Positions 785 through 62,039 of a stretch of DNA of 64,000 nt are shown here, piece by piece. Below the pieces are notes generated by a model. It was not told where the DNA came from, searched no databases, and saw nothing but the letters and a program-made list of their open reading frames with translations. Both the position numbers and the translations under genes were made by a program. This DNA comes from Rugalucina vietnamica. Lineage: Eukaryota; Mollusca; Bivalvia; Lucinida; Lucinidae. Positions within the stretch are counted from its first letter, which is position 1; each line of letters starts with the position of its first letter. The stretch covers positions 13,029,351 through 13,093,350 of the forward strand of contig OZ024878.1 of NCBI GenBank assembly GCA_964017185.1, in the 5' to 3' direction.

Positions 785-3012
785 TGCGATGCCTTATCCT
801 ATCTCCTGAATAATATTTATATTAGATTTGCGACCAAGTTATACAGACAAATTGTTGGAATCCCGATGGGTACCCATTGCGCCTCTCTCGTAGCTGATCT
901 ATTTTATACTGCAACGAAAGAGACTTCATGGATTCTCTTAACCATGACAATCAAGCTGATGTTATGGAGGCCTTTAATTCGACTTCTAGGTACCTCGATG
1001 ACCTTTTGAAAATTGACAATCCTTATTTTGAAGGCATGGTCAAACAAATTTATCCCCCTGAACTACAGTTGAATAAAGCAAACAACACAGATACCGAAGC
1101 CCCATTTTTAGACTTACATCTTTCTATTGCAAATAGTTTCTTCTAAAATTTATGATAAACGTAATGACTTTGATTTTGATATAGTAAACTTTCCGTTTTA
1201 GGATGGTGACGTTCCTCGCCGTGCTTCTTATGGCGTATACATTTCACAACTTATTAGGTTTGCTAGAGTCTGCAATCATGTTGCGGACTTCAATTCACGA
1301 AAAAAATGTTTAACAGCTAAACTTCTTCAGAAGGGCTTGATTCATGAAGCAGTGGTAATGCTCTCCTTCCCGCCTAGTATCTTTGGGTCGAGAATTTTGG
1401 CTTTATTTGCAGCAACATTTGTAATACATATGTTAGCCAGTATTGATCTTGGTTTATTTTTTATTCTGATCTGTTTTGGTAGTCGCTGGTGCATTTTCGC
1501 TATACTGATAAATATAGTAATTTCGCTGTCCCAGTGAAAATGTTTTTTGTTAATGATAATTATAATCGCTGTATTTCCGGTGTATTTGGTTGGGATTTTG
1601 GCTTGGTTTTATCAAAAGTTTTTGTTGCATGTGTTCGCTAGTTGAACGCTATTTTTTTTTTATTTAATTTTCTTTCTTTATGATTTCGTGAATGTCCCCC
1701 AGGAGAAGTGGTTTTCGGCGTTGTGCCTGGTAAAATCGTTAAGTTGTGTCCCAGATACAGTGATTTGTTTTCATCATACTTGTCCCCTGTTGGAACGATA
1801 ATCGGTGTCCCAGGAAAGTGGTTTATCTTCATTATACTACTGTTTATTGTGCCTACCTCTCTGTCGTACTCGTTCCCTTTCGTTCCTGTTGAAATATAGC
1901 CGGATGGCTACCTTGTTGGGAAAGAGCTAGTCATTCTGCTTTTCGAGTGTGTTGTCGGAAAATGTTTTGTTGTGTTTTATGTATTTTCTTTCCCACCCGC
2001 TGTCTATGTTGGGACTTTAAATTTAATTGCATCGATTCCTGGTCCCTCTATTCTTACTATAGGTATCATAAACTTCGAAAACCCTTTTTCTAAATTTTAT
2101 CGCAGACACTATGAACTGATTTCCAAATCTAATGTTGGGCTAAAGACCCTTTTACGTGAGGGCCTTTCGGAACCAGAATTTTATGGTGACTTGGTTTACA
2201 AATTTAAGAAACTTATTGGAAGGAATGATTTTTCTTTTCAATTCAGAAAAATCATTACGCGTTACAGACGTATAGGATATAACTTAAATGTTATGCGACA
2301 GTCTGCATGCTTAGTTTTTAATACAATCACGGTTGATAGCTACGCTGCCTTCTTTAATTGCACGCCGGTGGGTCGGACGTCAGACTCTATGATGGCCCCG
2401 ACAGATAGCTATTCATTTAGTTGGTTGGGACCGGAGCTTCTTGTCTGTTGCTTGGCCAAATGGGGTTCAACTGGCGGTTTTCTTTTGCTCCGGAGTTAGT
2501 AAGTTATTGGGCGCCCAGGGATCTCCATCGTCGGGCAGCTTACTCATTCTGTGAGTCCTCGTTTTTGATTCATCATGGAATTTATCATGATTTATTTGTT
2601 TGTCCATGATGATTCATTGACTAGTTACAGATTCACTACGAGGACGAACATCTAAATAAATGTTATGAACCACTGCAGAAGCTGAAGGTGAGGTTAGGAT
2701 CCTGAAAAACCGGTTTAAGCCCGCCAGTAATTTTATATTACTGATCGTTCCAAGGCGATACTTCTGTTGTGGTTCTTATTGTTTTGTGTCTTGGTGTTTA
2801 ATTTTTTGTGCTGTTGGCGCCTTATGTATGTTATCATATTTTAGTTAAGTTTGGGTGGCAGAGTGGCCACCTATTATTCGGCTTACTAAATGCATTCATG
2901 GTCTTAGTACCTTATTGTTAGTTTGGTTTTTCCCGCCTCGGTGTTTTGAGTGGGAATCTTTTTTCTTATTGCGCCTTTTCCTGATCGTTGCCTACTTGTA
3001 CCTTTTCACTTG
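785..3012 (+). mobile_element. Penelope-like retroelement, decayed copy with tail
   Basis: A reverse transcriptase is recognisable in pieces: a GIPMGTH-type block near 860-885, the catalytic-type YLDDLL block near 990-1010, and a downstream thumb/connection region (SKFYRRHYELISKSNVGLKT and TPVGRTSDSMMAPT) at about 2090-2405. A non-coding tail of about 600 bp follows and ends in GCCTACTTGTACCTTTT near 3010. The same tail recurs at least eight times in the window on both strands. Assignment to Penelope-like elements rests on the RT style, on 5'-truncated copies with short target duplications, and on partly duplicated or inverted ends; no GIY-YIG endonuclease was seen, so the family stays open. 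The copy is broken in several places and is not functional. A separate repeat module lies inside it at 1640-2062. Confidence 0.65.
1640..2062 (+). repeat. Dispersed module lying inside the RT region
   Basis: This stretch splits the RT homology: the part reading TAKLLQ lies before it and the part reading SKFYRRHYEL just after. It is repeated without RT sequence at 38318-38620 (+) and, in part, at 59095-59225 (-). Shared landmarks are CAGGAAAAGTGGTTTATC-like, GGATGGCTACC, and TTTCTTTCCCACC followed by TCTATGTTGGGACTT. It could be a retained intron, which Penelope-like elements are known to carry, or an independent element that inserted here. A CTATAGGT-type junction precedes the resumed RT homology. 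Either way it is a mobile, multi-copy unit. Confidence 0.5.
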
Positions 3013-3029
3013 TCTTACCGTAATGGAAA

Positions 3030-4130
3030 TACCTGTTGACTTGTCTTACGCTAATGGAAATACGTGTACATGTACCTGTTCACTTGGCTTACCCTACGTT
3101 CTCTTTGAACCGGTACCAGTCCTTTATTGTCATTTTGGTTGGTTTCGGTGTTTAAGATTGAAAATTCTGTTCTAATTGCCACGATCATTGCTTACTGTTT
3201 TCATATTTAAATATCAAGTATTGAAAATTCTTTTCTTCTGAATGGTGTAGACTTATTGAAACACTTATTGTGACGTTATTATTTATCTTAATGCCTTTTG
3301 ACTTATTCACAGATGGTTTCTATCTAAAGCCTTGCGAGACCATTGATGGCTGATACGGCCTTAGTTCAAAAGCATGCATGTATACATGTATATACAAGAA
3401 ACTTACACAAGCATATATAATATAATATTTTATCATGCACAACTCAGCTGAGACAAAATCTCTCCGACTCATATATGTAAAAATGAATGCCAACACTCGT
3501 CGGCATTTTAATATTTATATTAGCTAAATTAATTATCAGATTTCAAGACCTAGGTCATAGTGACAAAGTGACATAGTGACATCATTTTCCTGTCAAATAT
3601 CAGGTAATGCGTAGCTTATAACCTTCTTGATCATGGGCTTAATCAAGACGTGTTAGCTGTAACACGTGCGTGCAAAAATCGTGAGGTACCATGTAATGAG
3701 TTTCAACAGCCAGGTTATACGTAATCAATGGCCTTTTTATCACGGCTTTTATCAACTAAACTGCCAGTTGTAACGCGAAGAAGTCCGACGTGTTATTACA
3801 GCACTGATCGAGTTACGCAAACCCATGATAGTTTTAACAGCAAACCCGGTAACGAACATAAGATCAAATGCAATAACTGTAAACATTAAAGAAAGAAAAG
3901 ATAATTACAGGAAAAGCATTAAACGAAGAAAATACAGCTAAGATAAGTTAAATAAACCCACGCCCTCGTACATGTACATTGAAAAATGCAATAGTAAGCA
4001 ATGATCAGAAACTGGTGCAATCAAGGGCAAGTTGTACAAAATTAACCCACATTTGACGAATGGATTCTCCCATCGTTATCATTTGGGTGAGTCCACTGTC
4101 AATTTTAGGGGCGTTAGGAGTGAATTTGAC
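3030..4130. other. No recognisable feature
   Basis: AT-rich sequence. It contains only a short telomere-unrelated direct repeat (TGACAAAGTGACATAGTGACA) near 3560 and an alternating ATGCATGTATACATGTATAT patch near 3372. No exon-like open frame or family match was seen. Confidence 0.4.
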
Positions 4131-4163
4131 TATTTATTCCATTTTTCGATGAATTTCCTCTAA

Positions 4164-4230
4164 GCAAACAGAAAAGCCCCAGATGGGACGCCGCGTTCTG
4201 CGGCGTCACATCTGGGGCTATTCTGTTTGC
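4164..4230. repeat. 67 bp GC-rich hairpin
   Basis: Arms GCAAACAGAA..GCCCCAGATG..ACGCCGC and its reverse complement are separated by a 4-5 base loop (GTTCT). The pairing holds over about 30 positions with few mismatches, and the GC content is far above the surroundings. Probably the core of a short fold-back MITE; a hairpin transcript is possible but has no support beyond structure. Confidence 0.7.
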
Positions 4231-4284
4231 CTATGTCCCATAAAAGGGACGCCAGGCTTAAATGAGTTAACGATGTCGCTAGTC

Positions 4285-4440
4285 AACAATTCGTTAAAAT
4301 GTCATACATGAATATTACAAATACACTGTTATTTTTTTTTTAAATGTGAGAATCCTTTGCATTGCAGAGGGTTCTCATATTTTATCAACAAAATATAACC
4401 GTGTATTTGCTTATGTAGTCGGCATACGTTAGTCTAACGA
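4285..4440. mobile_element. Partial copy of the 'CAGTTGTTCAAA' MITE
   Basis: The interior matches the complete element at 47087-47336: AATATTACAAATACACTG, a GTGAGAATCCTTTGCA.TGCA..GG-TTCTCA palindrome at the centre, and CGTTA.. subterminal sequence. The outer inverted repeats are lost or diverged, so this is an older or truncated relative. Confidence 0.65.
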
Positions 4441-4634
4441 AGTTTTGAAGAACATACCCTAGGACTATTGTCCCATCTTAAAACCGAGGTGGAAAAATGG
4501 GAATTAAATTATGGTACAGGATGAGCAACAATACCCATAAAGGTGGTCACTCGATTACCTATACTAAAAACTTTATTATGATAATAAGCACGAAAACGTC
4601 ACCAAAACATGAAACAAATAAAACCCCTCCAGAA

Positions 4635-5560
4635 AAAGGTACAAATAGGCAATGATCAGGAAATGGCGCAATCAGAAAGATATTCCCACTCCAAAAACCA
4701 AGGGGGGGGGGGGGAAGAAAAAACCTAAGTGACACTTAGGTACTTGTACCAAGAAAACATATCGTAAGCCAAGTGAGCAGCCATTCTCTAATAGGGAGCC
4801 ACTCAGTTACCCGAACTTAACTAAAATATGAAAACGTACATAAGGCTCAAACGGCACAAAAGTTCAACTCCAAAACATGGAACAGTTAGAAACACAACAG
4901 AAACCTACAAGTTAGAAAGTCACTCTTATAGCAAGTACAAACAATAGCAACAGACAAACAAAACTAAAGTCATTCTTGTCACCAAGTTCACACTTCCACA
5001 AACCTAAAACACAACATCTACAAGCAACCAAACATAGCTCGTCAAGTCCGAAATCAGGCGAGTCGCTGAAGTAGCACGTGAAAGGTTATTCAGATTGTAA
5101 CAGTACTCATACTTAATGTGCGTGCAACTGAAGTTTAACGGAAAACATACGACATTTCGTCCTGATTATCCTGTAACGTTCTTTTACGTACCTGGACTCG
5201 CCCGCCTTTTGACGCTAGAGGTCAAAATCTAGCTAGTATACGGAAATTGAAAACAGAACCACTCACCAAACAGCCTACGCAAAATTAAAAGATAAGTGTT
5301 AGACTTAAGTATGTTTGGATTTTGGATGCAGCAAAAAGAAAGGTAAAATAGGCAATGATCAGGAAATGGCAAAGATGGCCCCGCTTCAAAAACCTAGGTG
5401 GGAAAAACTTAATTGACAATTAGGTACTTGTACTACTTGTACTAGGAAGAGATATTTAAAGCCGAGTGAGCAGCTATTTCCCAATGGGTGGCCACCCAGT
5501 TACTCGAACTTAGTAACTAAAATATGAAAACGTACGAAGCAACATCAATACAGTTATGCT
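4635..5560 (-). mobile_element. Two decayed tail fragments of the Penelope-like element
   Basis: Reverse-complement matches to the tail start at 4635 (AAAAAGGTACAAATAGGCAA) and again at 5338 (AGGTAAAATAGGCAATGATC). Both continue through the diagnostic ACTCCAAAAACC..AGG and GTAAGCC.AGTGAGCAGC blocks. At 5060-5245 lies a separate repeat (AGCACGTGAAAGGTTATTC) whose relative sits inverted at 48060-48247. Both tails are 5'-truncated and diverged. Confidence 0.6.
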
Positions 5561-5886
5561 CGGAAGATAGATGACAGTAAGTGCATTTGTGCACTATGAA
5601 GTGCACTTTACTAGCGATGTTTTGTAGTAATTAGTGCACGTACTAGTGCACTGTATGTGAAAAAGGGTGTTTCCTTTCGTCAAAGCACTACTGTATTTGT
5701 GTAATTATGGACAATGCATTCTCATCTGACACTGACCTTTTTTTTATCACCAACGTAAACAATTAAGGGCTTATACAGTGTATTAATGGTCTTTGTTTTT
5801 GCAATGCAGGTTTCCTTACGTATTTAGAATGCGACTTTGGTTTTAATTCCCGATGGGAATTCAAAAGTGTCGTGTGAAGGAACATT

Positions 5887-6170
5887 TCATCAAGAAAACA
5901 TGCCCGTGTAATGTATACCCCCTTATACTCCACTTTATATAGCTAAACTGGGGTACGCAGGAGTAAACGTATTTATTTTTACTTTCGCTCTAAAACATAG
6001 ATTGTGGGTACTCGTTAGAACCGCCTCGCCAAGGCGGTTCTAACGTGTACCCACAATCTATGTTTTGAGCAAAAATAAGAAAAATAATAACATTTTTTCT
6101 ACTGAAATGTTTTATTTTTTACAACTATTAAAATCTCTGTATATTACATAGGCATGTTTTCGTAATGTCA
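5887..6170 (+). mobile_element. MITE family 1 (GAGGCGGTTCTAACG palindrome)
   Basis: About 280 bp with ends matching CAT(T/C)A.GAAAACATGCCC. A central near-perfect palindrome is built from AACATAGATTGTGGGTAC, TCGTTAGAACCGCCTCG and their reverse complements. Flanking arms read CCCCTTATACTCCAC (left) and TCTCTGTATATTRCAT (right). About sixteen copies are scattered through this window. No open frame, so it is non-autonomous; the mobilising transposase is unknown. Confidence 0.8.
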
Positions 6171-6757
6171 TGATTAAGAATGTCATGATTTTGTTTTGAA
6201 TTCCCGATGGGAATTCCATATTGTCATATGAAAGAACAATTACTGTGTTCAAAGGTAATAGAAAATATTAACTTTTTATTACAATGTATAATCAGCTCAA
6301 GAGGGTTCGAATATAACTTGACGTTTCGTAAAAAACAAAATCTAGACCAGACGTGAAAAGACATAAAATAGAAAAAAATAATAATTCTTGCTAAATGTGT
6401 TGAGAGATTGTACAGGTTGTTCAATTTTATTGAATTTTTTTTAACATTTTGTTTTTATAAAAAATGTCATAAAAAACAACTAAAGACCAGTCCTTCGTTT
6501 AGAAATTGTTATCAACAACATGAACATACAAACATTAAACCTCACTTGATAATATAAACAAGTATATACACACACCCACATGTAGCAAACAGCAAAGAAA
6601 ACAGTCAAAAGCCAAAACATTTTTTAATAAATTTATACACCACAAATACAAAAAAATAGCAACAAACTGATAAAAATGGCGCAATTGTTTGTTATCAGGT
6701 CCACACCCCCAATACACATACAGCCGGAGCAACCTTGAAACAACTAAAGACAGCATT

Positions 6758-7386
6758 TAAAGCTATTCATTTTAGTTGGTTGGGGCCGGAGCTTCTTGTC
6801 TGTTGCTTGGCCCACCGGGGTCCAACTGGTGTTTTTCTTTTGCTCCGGAGTTAGTAGGTTATTCGGCGCCCAGGGATCTCCATCGTCGGGCAGCTTACTC
6901 AATCTGTGAGTCCTGGTTTTTGATTCATCAGGATGTTTATCATGATTTATTTGTTTGTTCTTGATGATTCATTGACTAGTTAGAGATTCACCACGAGGAC
7001 CGAAGAACTAACTAAATGTTGTGAACCACTGCAGAAGCTGAGGGTGAGGTTAGGTACCTGTAAAACCGGTTTAAGCCCGCCAGTAACTTTGTGTTACTGA
7101 TCGTTCCAAGTCGATACTTCTGTAGTGGTTCTTTTTGTTTTATGTCTTGGTGTTTAAAATTTTTTGTGCTGTTGGCGCCTTATGTATGTTTTCATATTTT
7201 TAGTTAAGTTAAGGTAACTGAGTGGCCACCTATTGGGAAAATAGCTGCTCATTCGGCTTACGATATGTTTCATGGTATAAGTACCTGATTGTTAGTTTGG
7301 TTTTTTCCCACCTCGGTTTTTGGAGTGGGAATCTTTTTCTGATTGCGCCTTTTCCTGATCTTTGCCTACTTGTACCTTTTTGTTAA
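6758..7386 (+). mobile_element. Penelope-like element, 5'-truncated copy
   Basis: Matches 2405-3012 closely, starting at the very end of the RT homology (AGCTATTCATTTTAGTTGG) and running to the GCCTACTTGTACCTTTTT end. The 63-codon open frame at 6776-6964 is an accidental frame shared by all tail copies, not a gene. 5' truncation is typical of target-primed reverse transcription. Confidence 0.7.
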
Positions 7387-22906: not shown

Positions 22907-24450
22907 AAAAAACCAGAGGACCAATGGTCCTGTAAACGCTCACCTGAAACCTGAGATATATACCAATAACCTTGTTTGACTACAATGGTAATATACATGT
23001 ATATAACCCCAGGGCCAGATCAGAGCAACCCCTGGAGTCAAATTCTTTTTCAAATCATTAAACTCCAGTCCATTTGCCAATTTACTACAAGTTTTGCCCT
23101 TCAAATGACGTTATAACAATTTTCCCCATACAAATGCATGGGCGACCTAAGTTGACCTTGTCGTAAAATAGGTCAAGGTCATCCAAGGGTCACAATTTAT
23201 ATAAAATTTGTAGAGCTCCATTGCCTGATGCTTCATGCCAAGTTTCAAAATCATAGACCTTCTGGTTCTGGAGAAGAAGATTTTTAAAGGATTTTGCTAT
23301 TTATAGCCATGGCAGCCATCTTGGTCATGTGACCATGACCATTTATAAATACTTTCATTCCCACTTCCTAACAATGCTCCTCATAAAGTTTGGCTTTGAT
23401 TGGCCAAGCAGTTTCAGAGAAGAAGATCTTTGAATATCACTGTAATATACATGTATATTACCCCGGGGTGGGGGCAGACAGACCCCTGGGGTCCAAATTT
23501 TTTCAGAATCATCAATCTTAAGTCCACTTGCCCATTTCCTGCAAGTTTTTCCCTACAAATGACATTTTGACACTTTTCCCCATTCAAATGCATGAGCGAC
23601 CTATGTTGACCTTGCTGTAAAATAGGTCAAGGTCATCCCAGGGTCATGATTTATATACACTTTGTAGAGCTCCAGTCACTGATGCTTCACACCAAGTTTC
23701 AAAATCATTGGCCTTCTGGTTCTGGAGAAGAAAATTTTTAAAGGTTTTTTCTATTTATAGCCATGGCGGCCATCTTGGTCATGTGACCTTGACCATTTAT
23801 ATAAACTTTCTTTCCCCCTTCCCAAGGATGCTCCATATGAAGTTTGGATTTGATTGGCCAAGCGGTTTCAGGGGAGAAGATGTTTCATTATTATGGAAAT
23901 ATACATGTATATAGCCCCGGGGCAGGGGCAGACAACCCCCCAGGGGCAAAAATTTTCCATTAACATTAATCTTCTGTCCATTTGCCTATTCCCAGTAAGT
24001 TTTACCCATTAAATAACATTTTACCATTTTTTCCCATTCAAATGCATTGGCGACCTAAGTTGACCTTGCCGTAAAATAGGTCAAGGTCATGACAGGGTCA
24101 TGATTTATATAAACTATGATGGACCCGCGTCCCTAATGCTACATACCAAGTTTCATGGAAATCTGCCCACTGGTTCTGGAGAAGAAGATTTTTAAAGGTT
24201 TTTGCTATTTATAGCCATGGTGGCCATCTTGGTCATGTGACCTGGACCATTTATATAAACTTTAGTTCCCCCTCTCTAAGGATGCTCCACATGAAGTTTG
24301 GCTTTGATTGGCCAAGCGGTTTCAGAGGAGAAGATCTTTGAAATTGTGAACGACGGACGACGACGGACGACGACGGACGACGGACGACGGACGCCGGAGC
24401 ATGGGTATACTATAAGCTCACCTGTGAGCCTTCGGCTCAGGTGAGCTAAA
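22907..24450 (+). mobile_element. Helitron-like non-autonomous element with 454 bp tandem repeats
   Basis: The 5' end has a short hairpin (AGGACCAATGGTCCT) and GCTCACCTGAAACC. Three tandem repeats follow, then an ACGG/ACGACGG microsatellite (24350-24397), and a 3' hairpin CTCACCTGTGAGCC..GGCTCAGGTGAG followed by CTAAA. A 3' hairpin plus CTRR-type end, no terminal inverted repeat and no target duplication are Helitron hallmarks. The layout matches the tandem-repeat-bearing Helitron relatives known from bivalves (pearl/HINE type). No Rep/helicase is encoded. Confidence 0.8.
22990..24343 (+). repeat. Three tandem repeats of 454 bp
   Basis: Repeats start at 22990, 23444 and 23898 (each AATATACATGTATAT), an exact spacing of 454 bp. 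Shared blocks: GACCTAAGTTGACCTTG, AAAATAGGTCAAGGTCAT, CCTTCTGGTTCTGGAGAAGA, ATTTATAGCCATGG and CATCTTGGTCATGTGACC. The third copy ends at the ACGG microsatellite. Open frames inside (for example 23708-23914) are accidental. Confidence 0.9.
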
Positions 24451-29086: not shown

Positions 29087-30335
29087 GCCGCCGCATAGGA
29101 AAACCAACAATCTGCAGAGGCGAAAACAAAGGAGCAGATCAGCTTCGCGGTAATTGATTTCGCTACACGGCTACATGTAGTATAATTCCTTTACTTTCTA
29201 AATCCAAAATTTCCAGCATCTAAAGATACAAGTAGGCAACAATCAGGAAAAGACGCAATCAGAAAAAGATTCCCACTCCAAAAACCGAGGTGGGGAAAAG
29301 TAAATTAACAATCACACACTTGTACCATGACAACATATCGTAAGCCGAATGAGCAGCTATTTTGGCCACTCTGTTACATAAACTTAACTAAAAATTTGAT
29401 GACATACATAAGGCGCCAACAGCACAAAAATTTTAAACACCAAGAAACCGCCACAGAAATATCGCCTTGGAACGATCAGTAATTTAAAATTACTGACGGG
29501 CTGAAATCAATTTCACAGGTACCTAACATCACCCTCAGCTTCTGCAGTGGTTCAGTGATATACAAGAAATAAGAAAACTCTATTAAGAAAATACTAAACG
29601 TTAAACATCAGAGTGAGCAGCTATTGAAGGTAAGGTGGTCGCAATGCTAGCTTGGACAGAAAAAGTAAAATGCAGAGGCTAAGTGAACAGCCAAATCATA
29701 CTCGGTTGGCCACAAAGCCATGCAACATAAAAAAAAAACAACTCGTAATTGGAATAACTTAGATAGGTGTGAATCACAACAGAATAGTACCGCCTTGGAA
29801 CGGTCTGTTATAAATAAATGGGGGGCTTAAATCGATTTTTACAGGTACCTAACCTCACCCTCAGCTTCTGCAGTGCTTCACAACATTAAGTTAGTTGTTC
29901 GGTCCTCGTGGTGAATCTCTAGCTAGTCAATGAATCATCATGGACAAACAAATAAATCATAATAAACATCCTGATGAATAAAAAACCAGGACTCACAGAT
30001 TGAGTAAGCTGTCTGACGATGGAGATCCCTGGGCGCCAAATAACTTACTAAATTTGGAGCAAAAAGAAAAACACCAATTGAACCCCGGTGGGCCAAGCAA
30101 CAGACAAGAAGCTCCGGCCCCAACCAACTTAAATAAATAATTTTATGTCGGGGCCATCATAGAGTCTGACGCCCGACCCACCGGCGTAGAATTAAAGAAG
30201 GCAGCATAGTTATCAGTTATCTAACCATCTTCTGTGTTCTGTGATTGTACAGCCTGGTTTGTGTCGGACGTAATCGGTGTGTCGGACGTAGTCGGAACCA
30301 AAATTGTTGGTTTTCTCACGCACATGCTCACTTTA
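29087..30335 (+). mobile_element. MITE family 2 copy split by a Penelope-like element
   Basis: Left half 29087-29223 (GCCGCCGCATAGGAAAACCA, GAAAACAAAGGAGCAGATCA, TTTCCAGCATCTAA). Right half 30219-30335 (ATCTAACCATCTTCTGTG, TTGTACAGCCTGG, GGTTTTCTCACGCACATG). ATCTAA stands on both sides of the insert, and the other MITE copies are continuous here. Confidence 0.8.
29224..30218 (-). mobile_element. Penelope-like element, 5'-truncated, with 6 bp target duplication
   Basis: Minus-strand copy. Its 3' end (GCCTACTTGTATCT in sense) lies at 29224 and its 5' end is cut inside the C-terminal RT homology (VDNYAAFF-type residues) at 30218. ATCTAA repeats at 29218-29223 and 30219-30224. Inside, the segment with CCTCACCCTCAGCTTCTGCA occurs twice (near 29535 and 29865), so part of the tail is duplicated in tandem, as in the partial terminal duplications of Penelope-like elements. 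The only open frame (29938-30123) is the accidental tail frame. Confidence 0.8.
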
Positions 30336-31533: not shown

Positions 31534-31544
31534 CACCTGATTTA

Positions 31545-31991
31545 TTAATGTAATTGTCTATACTGTATCATATAACTTTTATTATCATAACTGTCATCGA
31601 TTCGAAGAACTGAAAATCCAGAGACGTTTCTTTCTTTCTCCAGTATAACTGTTAGCTTGGTACCGAGCCAGCCCTCTCTCCATCCATTGCCTAGTTCGTG
31701 TACATCTTGAGGCTTCATGGACTCAAAATCTCGAAGGGCCTGTCTGTAACCGCCTGTTTTGGTGTACACCGTCATTAAAGGTGTATGGACAAGTACAAAA
31801 GCATCGTCAAGAATATTTATCAACGTGCGATGGAAAGTAGTGATAGATCTGCCTTTTCTGTTTCCCGAATCCGTGTCCGATACTTGTACGTCATTTCTAC
31901 CATCTGCGTGGCTATTCTTGCCTTTGTCCAAATAAGCAGCATTTGAGTGACAAGCATGTACCGCAATGACAAAGCCGATAAGGGTGATCAT
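31545..31991 (-). CDS. Small secreted protein with a module resembling bacterial polymorphic-protein C-termini
   Basis: An uninterrupted 148-codon frame, the best gene-like frame in the window. Residues 1-18 (MITLIGFVIAVHACHSNA) are a classic signal peptide with likely cleavage after Ala18 or Ala19. Residues 20-55 are polar and probably disordered. Residues 76-145 form a compact domain: YTKTGGYRQALRDFESMKP, then V97, GNGWREGWLGTKLTVIL, and finally a short strand ending in IQYR. From memory this spacing (GGY-x3-AL-x-DF-x4-P-x2-V, a glycine pair, TVIV-type and IKIRY-type strands) resembles a short C-terminal module of bacterial secreted polymorphic proteins; I could not check this. Two N-glycosylation sequons (N122, N137); no Cys in the mature chain. 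On the minus strand TTTGTTTTGTAG stands directly before the ATG, as a splice acceptor after a 5' UTR intron would. An AATAAA overlaps the TAA stop. Function unknown; it looks whole. Confidence 0.7.
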   Translation of the reverse strand: MITLIGFVIAVHACHSNAAYLDKGKNSHADGRNDVQVSDTDSGNRKGRSITTFHRTLINILDDAFVLVHTPLMTVYTKTGGYRQALRDFESMKPQDVHELGNGWREGWLGTKLTVILEKERNVSGFSVLRIDDSYDNKSYMIQYRQLH

Positions 31992-32003
31992 CTACAAAAC
32001 AAA
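31992..32003 (-). promoter_or_regulatory. Possible splice acceptor just before the ATG
   Basis: On the minus strand the pyrimidine-rich TTTGTTTTGTAG ends immediately before the start codon of the secreted-protein gene. That would place an intron in the 5' UTR. The upstream exon is not identified. Confidence 0.4.
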
Positions 32004-32029
32004 GTTTGAAATGTGAAACGTTTTTGCAT

Positions 32030-38639: not shown

Positions 38640-41075
38640 ATTTGTGTTTGTCTGCTAACCAATGTTTTATATATTTGGCCCCATTTAGATGATACTCGAC
38701 TTTGTATCGACTACCCTGTTGAAAGTTGCCAAATTTCAGTAATTCTCTTTATACTGCTCTCACATATACCGAAATTCCCTTGCGAATGCCCTTCCGAATG
38801 CAGTTTTGCGCAAATTCGCATTAATCGCAAAAATTCGGTAGCATTTGGTAGCATTTGCAAGCATTCGTAAGCATTCTGCCCAATCGGAGAAAATTTCAAG
38901 TTGTTGCGAAAATTAGGAGCATGCTCCTAAAATTTGGAAGGAAAACAAATTCTTAACATATTCGTAAAAGAATCGAAACAAATTCTGATTGATCGCAAGA
39001 CATTAGTAACGATGGTAAGGCATTCGTAAGGATTCGGTAGCATTTACTTCTATTGAGTTTCGACGTCCGTAAAGAATCGCTAGGAAATCGTAACTTATTT
39101 TCACATTCAAGACTACGTTTTTTGGCATAGTTTATTTATTCAGGCGCTATCCTCCAATTAAAAGCCTAAGCTTTAAGCTATTCATAAATGTATGTCTGAC
39201 AAATTAAAGACCCGTGAAATTTTGGTTAGCCCAGTAAAATTGTCTTTTTTAATATGTAGATCACAATTTGAGAGAAACAACAAAGTGTTGTGTGTTTCAA
39301 GAGAAGACTTTGATCAGTAATGATATATTTATTCCATGCCCCTTGGCATTGCGGGCGATTCTGATTTACATTGATATTAATTGCTATATTGCTTGCGAAC
39401 AAGTGACAAATGAAAACAATTCGGAAAGCATTCGCTACGCAGTTGCTTCATTCGTGGGGTATTTGCAAGGAGTTCTCATTATTTGTAACGGCATTTGTAA
39501 GCGTTCGTAACATGCGTAAGCCATTTTTAAGAATTCGGCAGTGTGGGTAACAATCAATTGCAACATTCTTAAAACATTTGTAAGGATCTGCAAGCATTCT
39601 TAACGTTTTGGTAAATTATACATCGTTTTCTACAGGCCCCGCCCCGTCCATTCGCATCATATTCGGTAATTTCAGCGCGATTTTCAAATTTTAGCATTCG
39701 CAAGGGATATTCGGTATATGTGAGAGCAGCATTAGCTCCATGTTGCCAAATCTAAAGGGTCACCGACGAGACTTCAATAGTCGAAACCGCGGTATAACCC
39801 ATCCCCTTTCTCATTAATGTGTTCACTGCTGTTTTATTTTTATTTGCTATTACTGTAGCTGGTGTTGTGCCGTGTGGCGGCCCTAAAAAGTCTCCCCGTA
39901 CATCACCCATAGTGCAGATTATATTTTCCTTTTGGTCCTATGAGATCGGCGAGGATGTTCTGAGATATCAAAATTTATTATCGGTTAAAATTCATTTTCT
40001 AACCAATGTTTCATATATTTGGCCCCATGGAGCCAAATCTAAAGGATCACTGACGATACTTTAATAGTCGAAACCGCGGTATGGCCCATCCCCTTTCTCA
40101 TTACTGTGTTCACTGCTCTTAAAGGATCTCAGTTTTATTTTCATTTGCTATTACTGTAGCTGGTGTTGTGCCTTGTGGCGGCGCTAAAAGTCTCACCGTA
40201 CATCATCTATAGTGCAGATTATATTTTCCTTTTGGTCCTTTGAGATCGGCGAGGATGTTCTGAGAAATCAAAATTTATTGTCGGTTAAGATTCATTTTCT
40301 AACCAATGTTTTATATACTTTGCCCTATTTCGATGATACTCGACTTTGTATCGACTAGCCTGTTGAAAGTTGCCAAATTTCAGTAATTCTCTTTGGCTCC
40401 ATGTTGCAAATTTCTAAAGGGTCACTGACGAGACTTTAATAGTCGAGACCGCGGTATGGCCCATCCCCTTTCTCATTAATGTGTTCACTGCTCTTAAAGA
40501 ATCTCAGTTTTATTTTTATTTGCTATTACTGTAGCTGGTGTTGTGCCTTGTGGCGGCCCTAAAAAGTCTCCCCGTTCATCATCTATAGTGCAGATTATAT
40601 TTTCCTTTTGGTCCTTTGAGATCGGCGAGGATGTTCTGAGAAATCAAAATTTATGATCGGTTAAGATTCATTTTCTAACCAATGTTTTTATATATTTGGC
40701 CCCATTTCGATGATACTCGACTTTCTATCGACTACCCTGTTGAAAATTGCCAAATTTCAGTAATTCTCTTTGGCTCCATGTTGCCAAATCTAAAGGGTCA
40801 CTGACGAGACTTTAATAGTCGAAACCGCGGTATGGCCCATCCCCTTTCTCATTTATTAGTTCACTGCTCTTAAAGGATCTCAGTTTTATTTTTATTTGCT
40901 ATTACAGTAGCAGATTATATTTTCCTTTTGGTCCTTTGAGATCGGCGAAGATGTTTTATGAAATCAAAATTTATTATCGGTTAAGATTCATTTTCAAATA
41001 GTCGAAAGCGCGGTATGGCCCATCCCCTTTCTCATTAATGTGTTCACTGCTCTTAAAGGATCTCAGTTTCATTTT
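38640..41075 (+). repeat. 376 bp satellite array, interrupted
   Basis: The marker AGTCGAAACCGCGGT recurs at 39779, 40066, 40441, 40817 and 41000 (spacings 287, 375, 376, 183): full monomers of about 376 bp plus shortened variants. Other shared words: CTCATTAATGTGTTCACTGC, CTTGTGGCGGCCC, GAGATCGGCGAGGATGTTC and GATGATACTCGACTTTGTAT. The array begins before 38752, where a 980 bp element splits it, and ends near 41075. Confidence 0.85.
38752..39731. mobile_element. TTA-flanked PIF/Harbinger-type non-autonomous element, 980 bp
   Basis: Ends TACTGCTCTCACATATACCG and, inverted, TGCTGCTCTCACATATACCG pair over about 38 bp (through TCCCTTGCGAATGC). TTA at 38749-38751 and 39732-39734. Uninterrupted satellite monomers read CTCTTTGGCTCC at this point, giving the empty site with one substitution. 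The interior is dense in degenerate copies of GCATTCGTAAG/GCATTTGTAAG words on both strands. No transposase frame. Confidence 0.85.
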
Positions 41076-61161: not shown

Positions 61162-61660
61162 GTGTTTCTATTAACACGCGTATTTGTCAGAGTAATTATT
61201 TATGCTGCGATTTAGACGGAGGTTATTGTTTTTATTATCAAACCAGCTGTTTAAACTGGATAACTAAAGCTGGTAGAAATTCAGGTTGCGTTTTCAAAGG
61301 CCTGTTATATATTGAGATCGTAAATGTTAAAATTCAAGCGTTTAACATTGCTGAGCAGGATAAATTTTAGTCTCATCTGAGTTGAGCATGAAAGAAAGCT
61401 TAATAATGATTTTTCTCATGATGCATGTCATACTGTTAAGTTTTTAGGTCAATTGTTGTAATTGGAGATCTTACATTTACGTATCTTTGGAATGTTTAGC
61501 CAAATGTATACATGGTTTTTACATCGACAAATTTCACATTGACCAATAATTTTTGTCGTCTTCACGTGACCTGCATGGTTTATTTAGCGATCCGAATGTC
61601 TCTTTGTGACACGTTTTTTGTATGTACATTATTAATTAAAACAAGGTTTAAAATTTACAG

Positions 61661-61978
61661 ATATTGGTTGGCACGTCCTATCGTGTCCAGTGGGGTAAGC
61701 GTGATGAAGTCGCTGTCGCCAAAATATTAGCGTCCGGTACTGACACCGAAATGAGAAGACTGAAAGTGACAAAGGAAAGAGAGACTTCAAAGCGCAAAGG
61801 TTCACCGACTCCTGACAGTCAAACATGCAGTCCGAAACGACGACGTAGTTCTACTCCACAGAGCAGACCAGCAAGTAGTCCGAAAAGACGACGTAACTCT
61901 TCCCCACACAGCAGACCAGCAAGTAGTCCGAAAAGACGACGTAACTCTACTCCGCAGAGCAGACAACAGGCGACTAAG
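61661..61978 (+). CDS. Exon 2 of the SR-repeat gene
   Basis: Acceptor TTTACAG then 106 codons in phase with exon 1, followed by a plausible donor AAG|GTAAAT. ILVGTSYRVQWGKRDEVAVA and KILASGTDTEMRRLK finish the N-terminal module. Then comes a low-complexity basic/serine tail: KERETSKRKGSPTPDSQ and three repeats of SPKRRR.S.P.SRPASS (about 61830-61960). KRRR clusters look like nuclear localisation signals, and SP/SR-rich repeats are typical of proteins phosphorylated by CDK or SR kinases. The repeats are near-identical at DNA level (period 51 bp), so the number of copies may vary. If the intron were retained the frame would add only about 16 residues before a stop; I prefer continuation in exons beyond 62 kb or outside the window. 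Confidence 0.6.
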
Positions 61979-62039
61979 GTAAATGTTGGAATTGGTTGTT
62001 GGAGTAAACGATTGCTAACCATGTTCCAGTAAAATAAAT

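Follow-up and report, generated by a model that had tools for sequence, protein, structure and literature searches.

A C-terminal module homologous to bacterial polymorphic toxins in an expanded host protein family

An open frame of 148 codons in the window (the whole 64-kb stretch of DNA analysed here) probably encodes a divergent member of a large family of secreted host proteins, in which a toxin-homologous module has been domesticated and expanded as an effector processed by convertases; we put the probability of this reading at roughly 0.6. The module is homologous to the C-termini of the polymorphic toxins of the RHS, hemagglutinin-repeat and DUF6531 types. In the host genome the family is expanded, the module is placed at the C-terminus of the proteins, and one subfamily is split into exons. 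An initial annotation, made from the letters of the window, had suggested that a module of bacterial appearance could have been domesticated as a secreted effector or immune protein of an animal. It was right on this main point but understated the scale, and domestication is now supported by the multiplication of the family, by the split-exon subfamily and by the conservation of the module.

The open frame and its surroundings

The frame begins with an ATG at position 31991 and ends with a TAA at 31547-31545, giving a product of 148 aa. The initial annotation had reported a frame of this length at 31545..31991; it is present, on the minus strand, which the annotation did not state, and the plus strand of the same interval contains stops in the frame read. 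The following features are found in the frame or adjoining it:

31991..31545, minus strand: 148-codon open frame plus TAA stop (locus L010 in the search of the host's own genome)
31935..31991, minus strand: signal-peptide-like segment, residues 1-19 (from the sequence, hydrophobic)
31848..31859, minus strand: RKGR, residues 45-48, a putative convertase site of the RxxR type ahead of the module (from the sequence)
31791..31835, minus strand: preceding helix region of the host side, residues 53-67, consensus approximately LLxGAKxI (alignment columns 5-19)
31545..31772, minus strand: C-terminal module, residues 74-148, homologous to bacterial polymorphic-toxin C-termini (profiles and alignment)
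31701..31754, minus strand: core helix motif GGYRQALRDFESMKPQDV, residues 80-97 (pattern scan and alignment)
31992..32004, minus strand: polypyrimidine/AG stretch resembling a splice acceptor, adjoining the ATG (from the sequence)
31546..31541, minus strand: candidate AATAAA polyadenylation signal overlapping the stop codon (from the sequence)

The signal peptide, polyadenylation signal and acceptor-like site of the initial annotation can thus be recognized, as candidate elements, in residues 1-19, in the AATAAA and in the CTTTGTTTTGTAG located directly 5' of the ATG. The start of the frame scores 2.78 by a crude rule that considers hydropathy only. The acceptor-like site would imply a 5' exon upstream, and the surroundings of the frame fit those of a terminal exon, as far as can be judged from the letters. 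No RHS, hemagglutinin or DUF6531 carrier is present within the frame itself, and an in-frame TAG is located directly before the ATG. In the columns of the preceding helix region, the bacterial modules show mostly gaps, partly since they were cut near the start of the module. The frame ends four residues past the profile match, the corresponding median for 42 full-module frames being five residues (range 1 to 49). Searches with the window frame in Pfam, NCBIfam and PHROGs gave no family at E≤10.

No other ATG frame in the window is as long, the next one having 111 codons. ATG frames of at least 148 codons appeared in 26 of 60 simulated windows (order-4 Markov) and, therefore, the length of the frame alone proves nothing.

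Bacterial counterparts of the module

A DNA pattern was built from the helix of the window frame (GGYxxALxDFxx[NTN]xPxxV). This helix, which the initial annotation had singled out as GGY-x3-AL-x-DF..P..V, has a single match in the window and none in 100 shuffles of it. There are two matches in 257 Gb of prokaryote genomes, with about 0.5 expected by chance (a hand estimate that supposes uniform bases), and none in viral contigs. Both prokaryote matches are the last residues of long frames, one from Arachidicoccus (L002) and the other from a Kaiserbacteria MAG (L003), which we take to belong to the Bacteroidota and the Patescibacteria, respectively. The NCBIfam RHS-associated core (TIGR03696) was detected in both frames, with 56.2 and 54.1 bits for a cut-off of 32.5. 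In the Pfam scan, L003 showed RHS repeats, and the L002 piece had no match. The likeness to C-termini of bacterial polymorphic proteins, noted in the initial annotation, is supported in that the two pattern matches, 2/2, terminate RHS-core proteins.

By tblastn with the L003 and L002 modules, more copies were found in plasmids (10 and 5 records, respectively), which, where annotated, belong to RHS, hemagglutinin-repeat or DUF6531 proteins. Six plasmid places were retrieved (L004-L009), so that the bacterial set comprises L002-L009; according to the sequence records, carriers come from Bacillota and Pseudomonadota. Each bacterial copy sits at the end of a larger carrier protein, with a small ORF after it, whereas host copies are small proteins, many of them with a signal-like start and an RxxR. 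A small ORF of the immunity type lies after the toxin gene in all eight bacterial loci; these downstream ORFs are mutually similar in six of the eight, and the seven that were scanned gave no Pfam match above cut-off. Host and bacterial modules have in common a helix of the approximate form GG[YF]xxAxx[DE]FxxLxPxxV, set at the end of the protein as in the RHS, hemagglutinin-repeat and DUF6531 toxins, and, after this helix, strands approximating to G-x-VG, V-x-V, PTxE and IxY. Further occurrences of the module among the plasmid and phage hits are a Paenibacillus larvae phage protein that carries the annotation toxin, and Neisseria gonorrhoeae records that list no gene at that place.

The module has no Pfam or NCBIfam model on either the bacterial or the host side. 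For nine modules, NCBIfam yielded nothing at E≤1 and Pfam nothing better than E 0.11, and eight host paralogues were all below the cut-off of the curated families (best E 0.065). A putative bacterial pair of toxin and immunity protein is hereby exposed, with a toxin module lacking such a model and apparently distributed over four bacterial phyla.

A profile of L004-L009, which leaves out the motif-derived seeds L002 and L003, was searched against 1287 frames of the window. The window frame was found at E 5.6e-7 and the next best frame at 2.8; part of the helix similarity behind these values is selected, because the bacterial seeds came from the motif of the window frame, and L004-L009 were themselves found through seeds sharing that helix motif. 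None of 5000 residue shuffles reached 26 bits, the best scores being 11.0 and 12.9 with two profiles. When ten host modules were compared with six bacterial modules by hhalign, a probability of 97.4 was obtained over 62 columns, covering the helix and the first strands. A lack of similarity above background had been named in the initial annotation as a result that would speak against it; what was found is the above-mentioned profile E value and hhalign probability. The profile of ten host modules was run against the eight bacterial modules and nothing else; seven were recovered at E≤6.4e-9, L006 being the exception (E 0.4). With a profile of the beta half alone, the window frame was absent among the matches listed, to E about 7 to 10, and the best host member (L016) had only E 0.41. 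Identity between host and bacterial modules is low (37 percent for L002, 24 percent for L003).

An expanded family in the host genome

The host's own genome is assembled into 47 contigs totalling 1.09 Gb, of which C10 carries the window. This genome size and the split exons described below are consistent with a eukaryotic host, which is probably an animal. Some repeats are similar in appearance to those of bivalve genomes. Used as query, the window frame finds 12 places at E≤0.1, or 52 when the threshold is relaxed to E≤10, and its paralogue L016 (contig C1) finds 61 places at E≤0.1. The bacterial L003 module as the only query gives four host places at E≤1, and all four are members of the family. 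Merging the queries gives 70 places with E≤0.1, spread over 13 contigs, among which places 12 clusters can be distinguished (neighbours within 60 kb).

For further analysis, 30 of the 61 L016-query rows were retrieved (31 were left out), as well as 30 of the 52 window-query rows. A family frame is present at E≤1e-4 by an iterated host profile in 64/64 retrieved loci, corresponding to 61 distinct frames that measure from 46 to 264 aa from stop to stop. With the bacterial profile, 43 of these 61 frames are found at E≤1e-3, and no other frame is picked up. The initial annotation had described the frame as standing alone. This holds for the window, in which the second-best family score has E 0.88, but not for the genome, where paralogues were found.

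Beta-half exons account for two of the 61 frames, and some others are helix exons of a split subfamily, many of them on contig C16. To judge from the frames, the helix and the beta half of the module are apparently encoded by separate exons in this subfamily, with an intron between them. Examples on C16 are L022:2580-2735:+ and L021:828-965:-.

These data bear on the origin of the sequences. Bacterial contamination or a recent bacterial insert could explain the homology to bacterial modules, yet it would have to be reconciled with matching places on 13 contigs of a 1.09-Gb assembly, with the splitting of one subfamily into exons and with the low identity to the bacterial modules; we consider it highly improbable.

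Acceptor-like sites are also found in other members. For instance, among 23 paralogous frames examined, three (L011, L017 and L027) have an acceptor-like AG six bases before the first in-frame Met. In L012 and L015 the frame opens with TTTTCAG, which is not immediately followed by an in-frame Met; translation of these two may therefore begin in an exon further 5'. Some members of the family are broken by internal stops. L051, L057 and L023 show internal stops or, in the case of L023, continuation in another frame, and are apparently decaying copies.

Putative processing and selection

A hydrophobic, signal-like start was detected in 30 of 42 full-module frames by a crude rule. Of the 35 testable frames, 26 have an RxxR in the 40 aa that precede the module, the mean of 2000 rounds of shuffling being 10.8 and the largest value 19. 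Similarly, the stricter R-x-K/R-R precedes the module in 11 of 35 frames (shuffle mean 1.9, largest 8).

The module is conserved between close paralogues. Its dN/dS is below 1 in all 12 close pairs (0.13 to 0.90) and does not exceed 0.35 in eight of them; these pairs are few and non-independent, with small counts of changes, and four of the 12 include broken-looking frames (L015, L051, L057). In seven of the eight computable pairs the module has a lower dN/dS than the pro-region, the exception being L038/L055. All pairs are formed by other members, as the window frame has no close paralogue.

The sequence of events that we favour would be as follows. A bacterial toxin module would have been acquired by the host, probably once, and provided with a signal peptide and a pro-region carrying an RxxR site. 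On its way through the secretory pathway the mature module would be freed by proprotein convertases, and it would then function extracellularly, as an effector of host defence or as a ligand. Secretion, clustering and diversification suggest that the family may serve in defence.

The direction of transfer, from bacteria to host, is suggested by the broad range of bacterial carriers together with the single bacterial side of the tree. In a quick tree of 76 columns, the eight bacterial rows are grouped on one side of one branch with an SH-aLRT of 95; this tree is unrooted, keeps few columns and contains several long host rows, and the row of the window is not firmly placed in it.

Conserved residues and the fate of the toxin chemistry

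The joint alignment is constituted by 38 host and 8 bacterial modules, since L037, L015, L033 and L057 were left out of the 42 full-module frames. Columns G37, A42, G78 and Y139 are invariant in the 46 modules. This invariance argues against a chance frame carrying a chance motif, as do the origin of both prokaryote matches from one kind of protein and the fact that the family in the host genome is reached from host and bacterial queries alike. Such an accident would agree with the length of the frame, which is that expected by chance, and with the lack of significance of the beta half alone; even so, its probability appears minimal.

Other columns separate the two sides of the alignment. The strand-5 arginine (R138) is present in 8/8 bacterial modules vs 1/38 host modules (L012). 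Column 91 has R in seven of the eight bacterial modules, while in the host R is found in 7/38 and K in 8/38 (basic in 15/38). T111 and E113 are both present in 8/8 bacterial modules; at the former position host modules have T in 12/38 and S in 7/38, and at the latter E in 17/38. The G of the DG hairpin, also present in 8/8 bacterial modules, corresponds to a gap in 37/38 host modules and to E in the remaining one. Because of the contrast in the strand-5 arginine, the original toxin chemistry has probably been altered or lost in host modules.

At columns 91, 111, 113 and 138 the window copy reads L, V, R and Q, i.e. the strand-3 arginine, the strand-4 threonine and glutamate, and the strand-5 arginine are all replaced. 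It is one of the more degenerate members of the family. Since these four bacterial signature residues are replaced, the window copy would be expected to bind rather than to cut.

It might be argued that the family is real but that the window copy itself is decaying and not expressed. It lacks the four signature residues examined as well as a close paralogue, and internal stops or, in L023, a run-on in another frame occur in other members. However, it combines an intact frame, a start, an acceptor-like site, a stop and an AATAAA in register, and it retains the C-terminal length and the final Y. We regard decay as unlikely for this copy.

Another explanation is that host members are active secreted toxins that keep the bacterial activity (possibly that of a BECR-type RNase) and serve as weapons, either against microbes or in the manner of a venom. 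All 38 host modules retain the final Y and 17/38 retain E113, the module is conserved in a family expanded in clusters, and secretion would keep a toxin away from the host's own cytosol. Nevertheless, the strand-5 R persists in one host module of 38 and a basic R/K at column 91 in 15/38, and retained activity seems improbable to us.

Structure and relation to known systems

The bacterial module is predicted to consist of a strand, a helix, and then five strands (pLDDT 86.1). The BECR-fold RNases (Ntox7 and others) are described in PMC3482391 as a helix followed by a four-stranded meander with an optional fifth strand, and the predicted order of elements in the bacterial module agrees with this helix and meander. 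A structure comparison of the predicted model for the BECR fold gave no significant structural match. The motif printed for Ntox7 in PMC3482391 is DGx+xhR, plus an N motif, whereas many bacterial modules show DG[RST]xVxVR, with a spacing one residue longer; this comparison is of descriptions only.

At least 14 polymorphic-toxin domains are known to have been transferred to animals (PMC3482391). One precedent there is the C-terminal domain of teneurins, which resembles GHH nucleases and is catalytically inactive: like the module described here, it would be a module derived from bacterial RHS toxins, set in an animal extracellular protein, with loss of catalysis. Teneurins differ in the class of the domain (HNH) and in having kept the RHS repeats, according to the same text, whereas the host family consists of dozens of small secreted-looking proteins without RHS repeats. 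The biomphalysins of a snail, which are aerolysin-like, are also comparable as a family of bacterial-type toxins acquired and diversified in an invertebrate, and differ in being of the aerolysin type of protein (PMC8047071).

The teneurin precedent, as given in PMC3482391, lends some support to the idea that an inactive module became a processed extracellular ligand with a signalling function. The loss of bacterial signature residues and the combination of a signal-like start, an RxxR and a small C-terminal module are consistent with it too. However, dozens of diverging and clustered paralogues would be, from general knowledge, unusual for developmental ligands, and there is a rather small chance that signalling is the function of the family.

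Going beyond the preferred reading of a domesticated and convertase-processed effector family, a eukaryotic, probably animal, lineage may have taken over the architecture of the weapon as such (a signal, a cleavable carrier and a diversifying module) and built with it an antimicrobial arsenal of about 70 or more loci. We propose this tentatively, as a plausible extension that falls short of being probable. If it were true, a secreted arsenal would derive from a toxin class for which neither Pfam nor NCBIfam has a model. A clustered, diversifying family provided with a release site would also test how inter-bacterial weapons become host effectors.

Other features of the window

A selenoprotein was considered on account of a SECIS_1 match at 30168..30101 on the minus strand, 1.4 kb downstream of the frame (35.3 bits, cut-off 35), and rejected. 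The match falls within a dispersed repeat that recurs at 2334-2645 and 6758-7001, and no SECIS was listed up to E 1 when 2300-7100 was scanned. The match is taken as a product of chance because it belongs to a dispersed repeat whose other two copies in the window are without SECIS.

Two overlapping frames at 758-1143 on the plus strand (IGIPMGTHCA..DL) resemble pieces of a reverse transcriptase; Pfam gave no match for the frame at 758-1006. Tandem arrays of long period are located at 22987-24342 (454 bp x 3.0) and 40018-40911 (376 bp x 2.4). Finally, a frame at 61652-62029 on the plus strand contains a 48-bp tandem repeat (61829-61964), which encodes units like SPKRRRNSTPQSRPAS.
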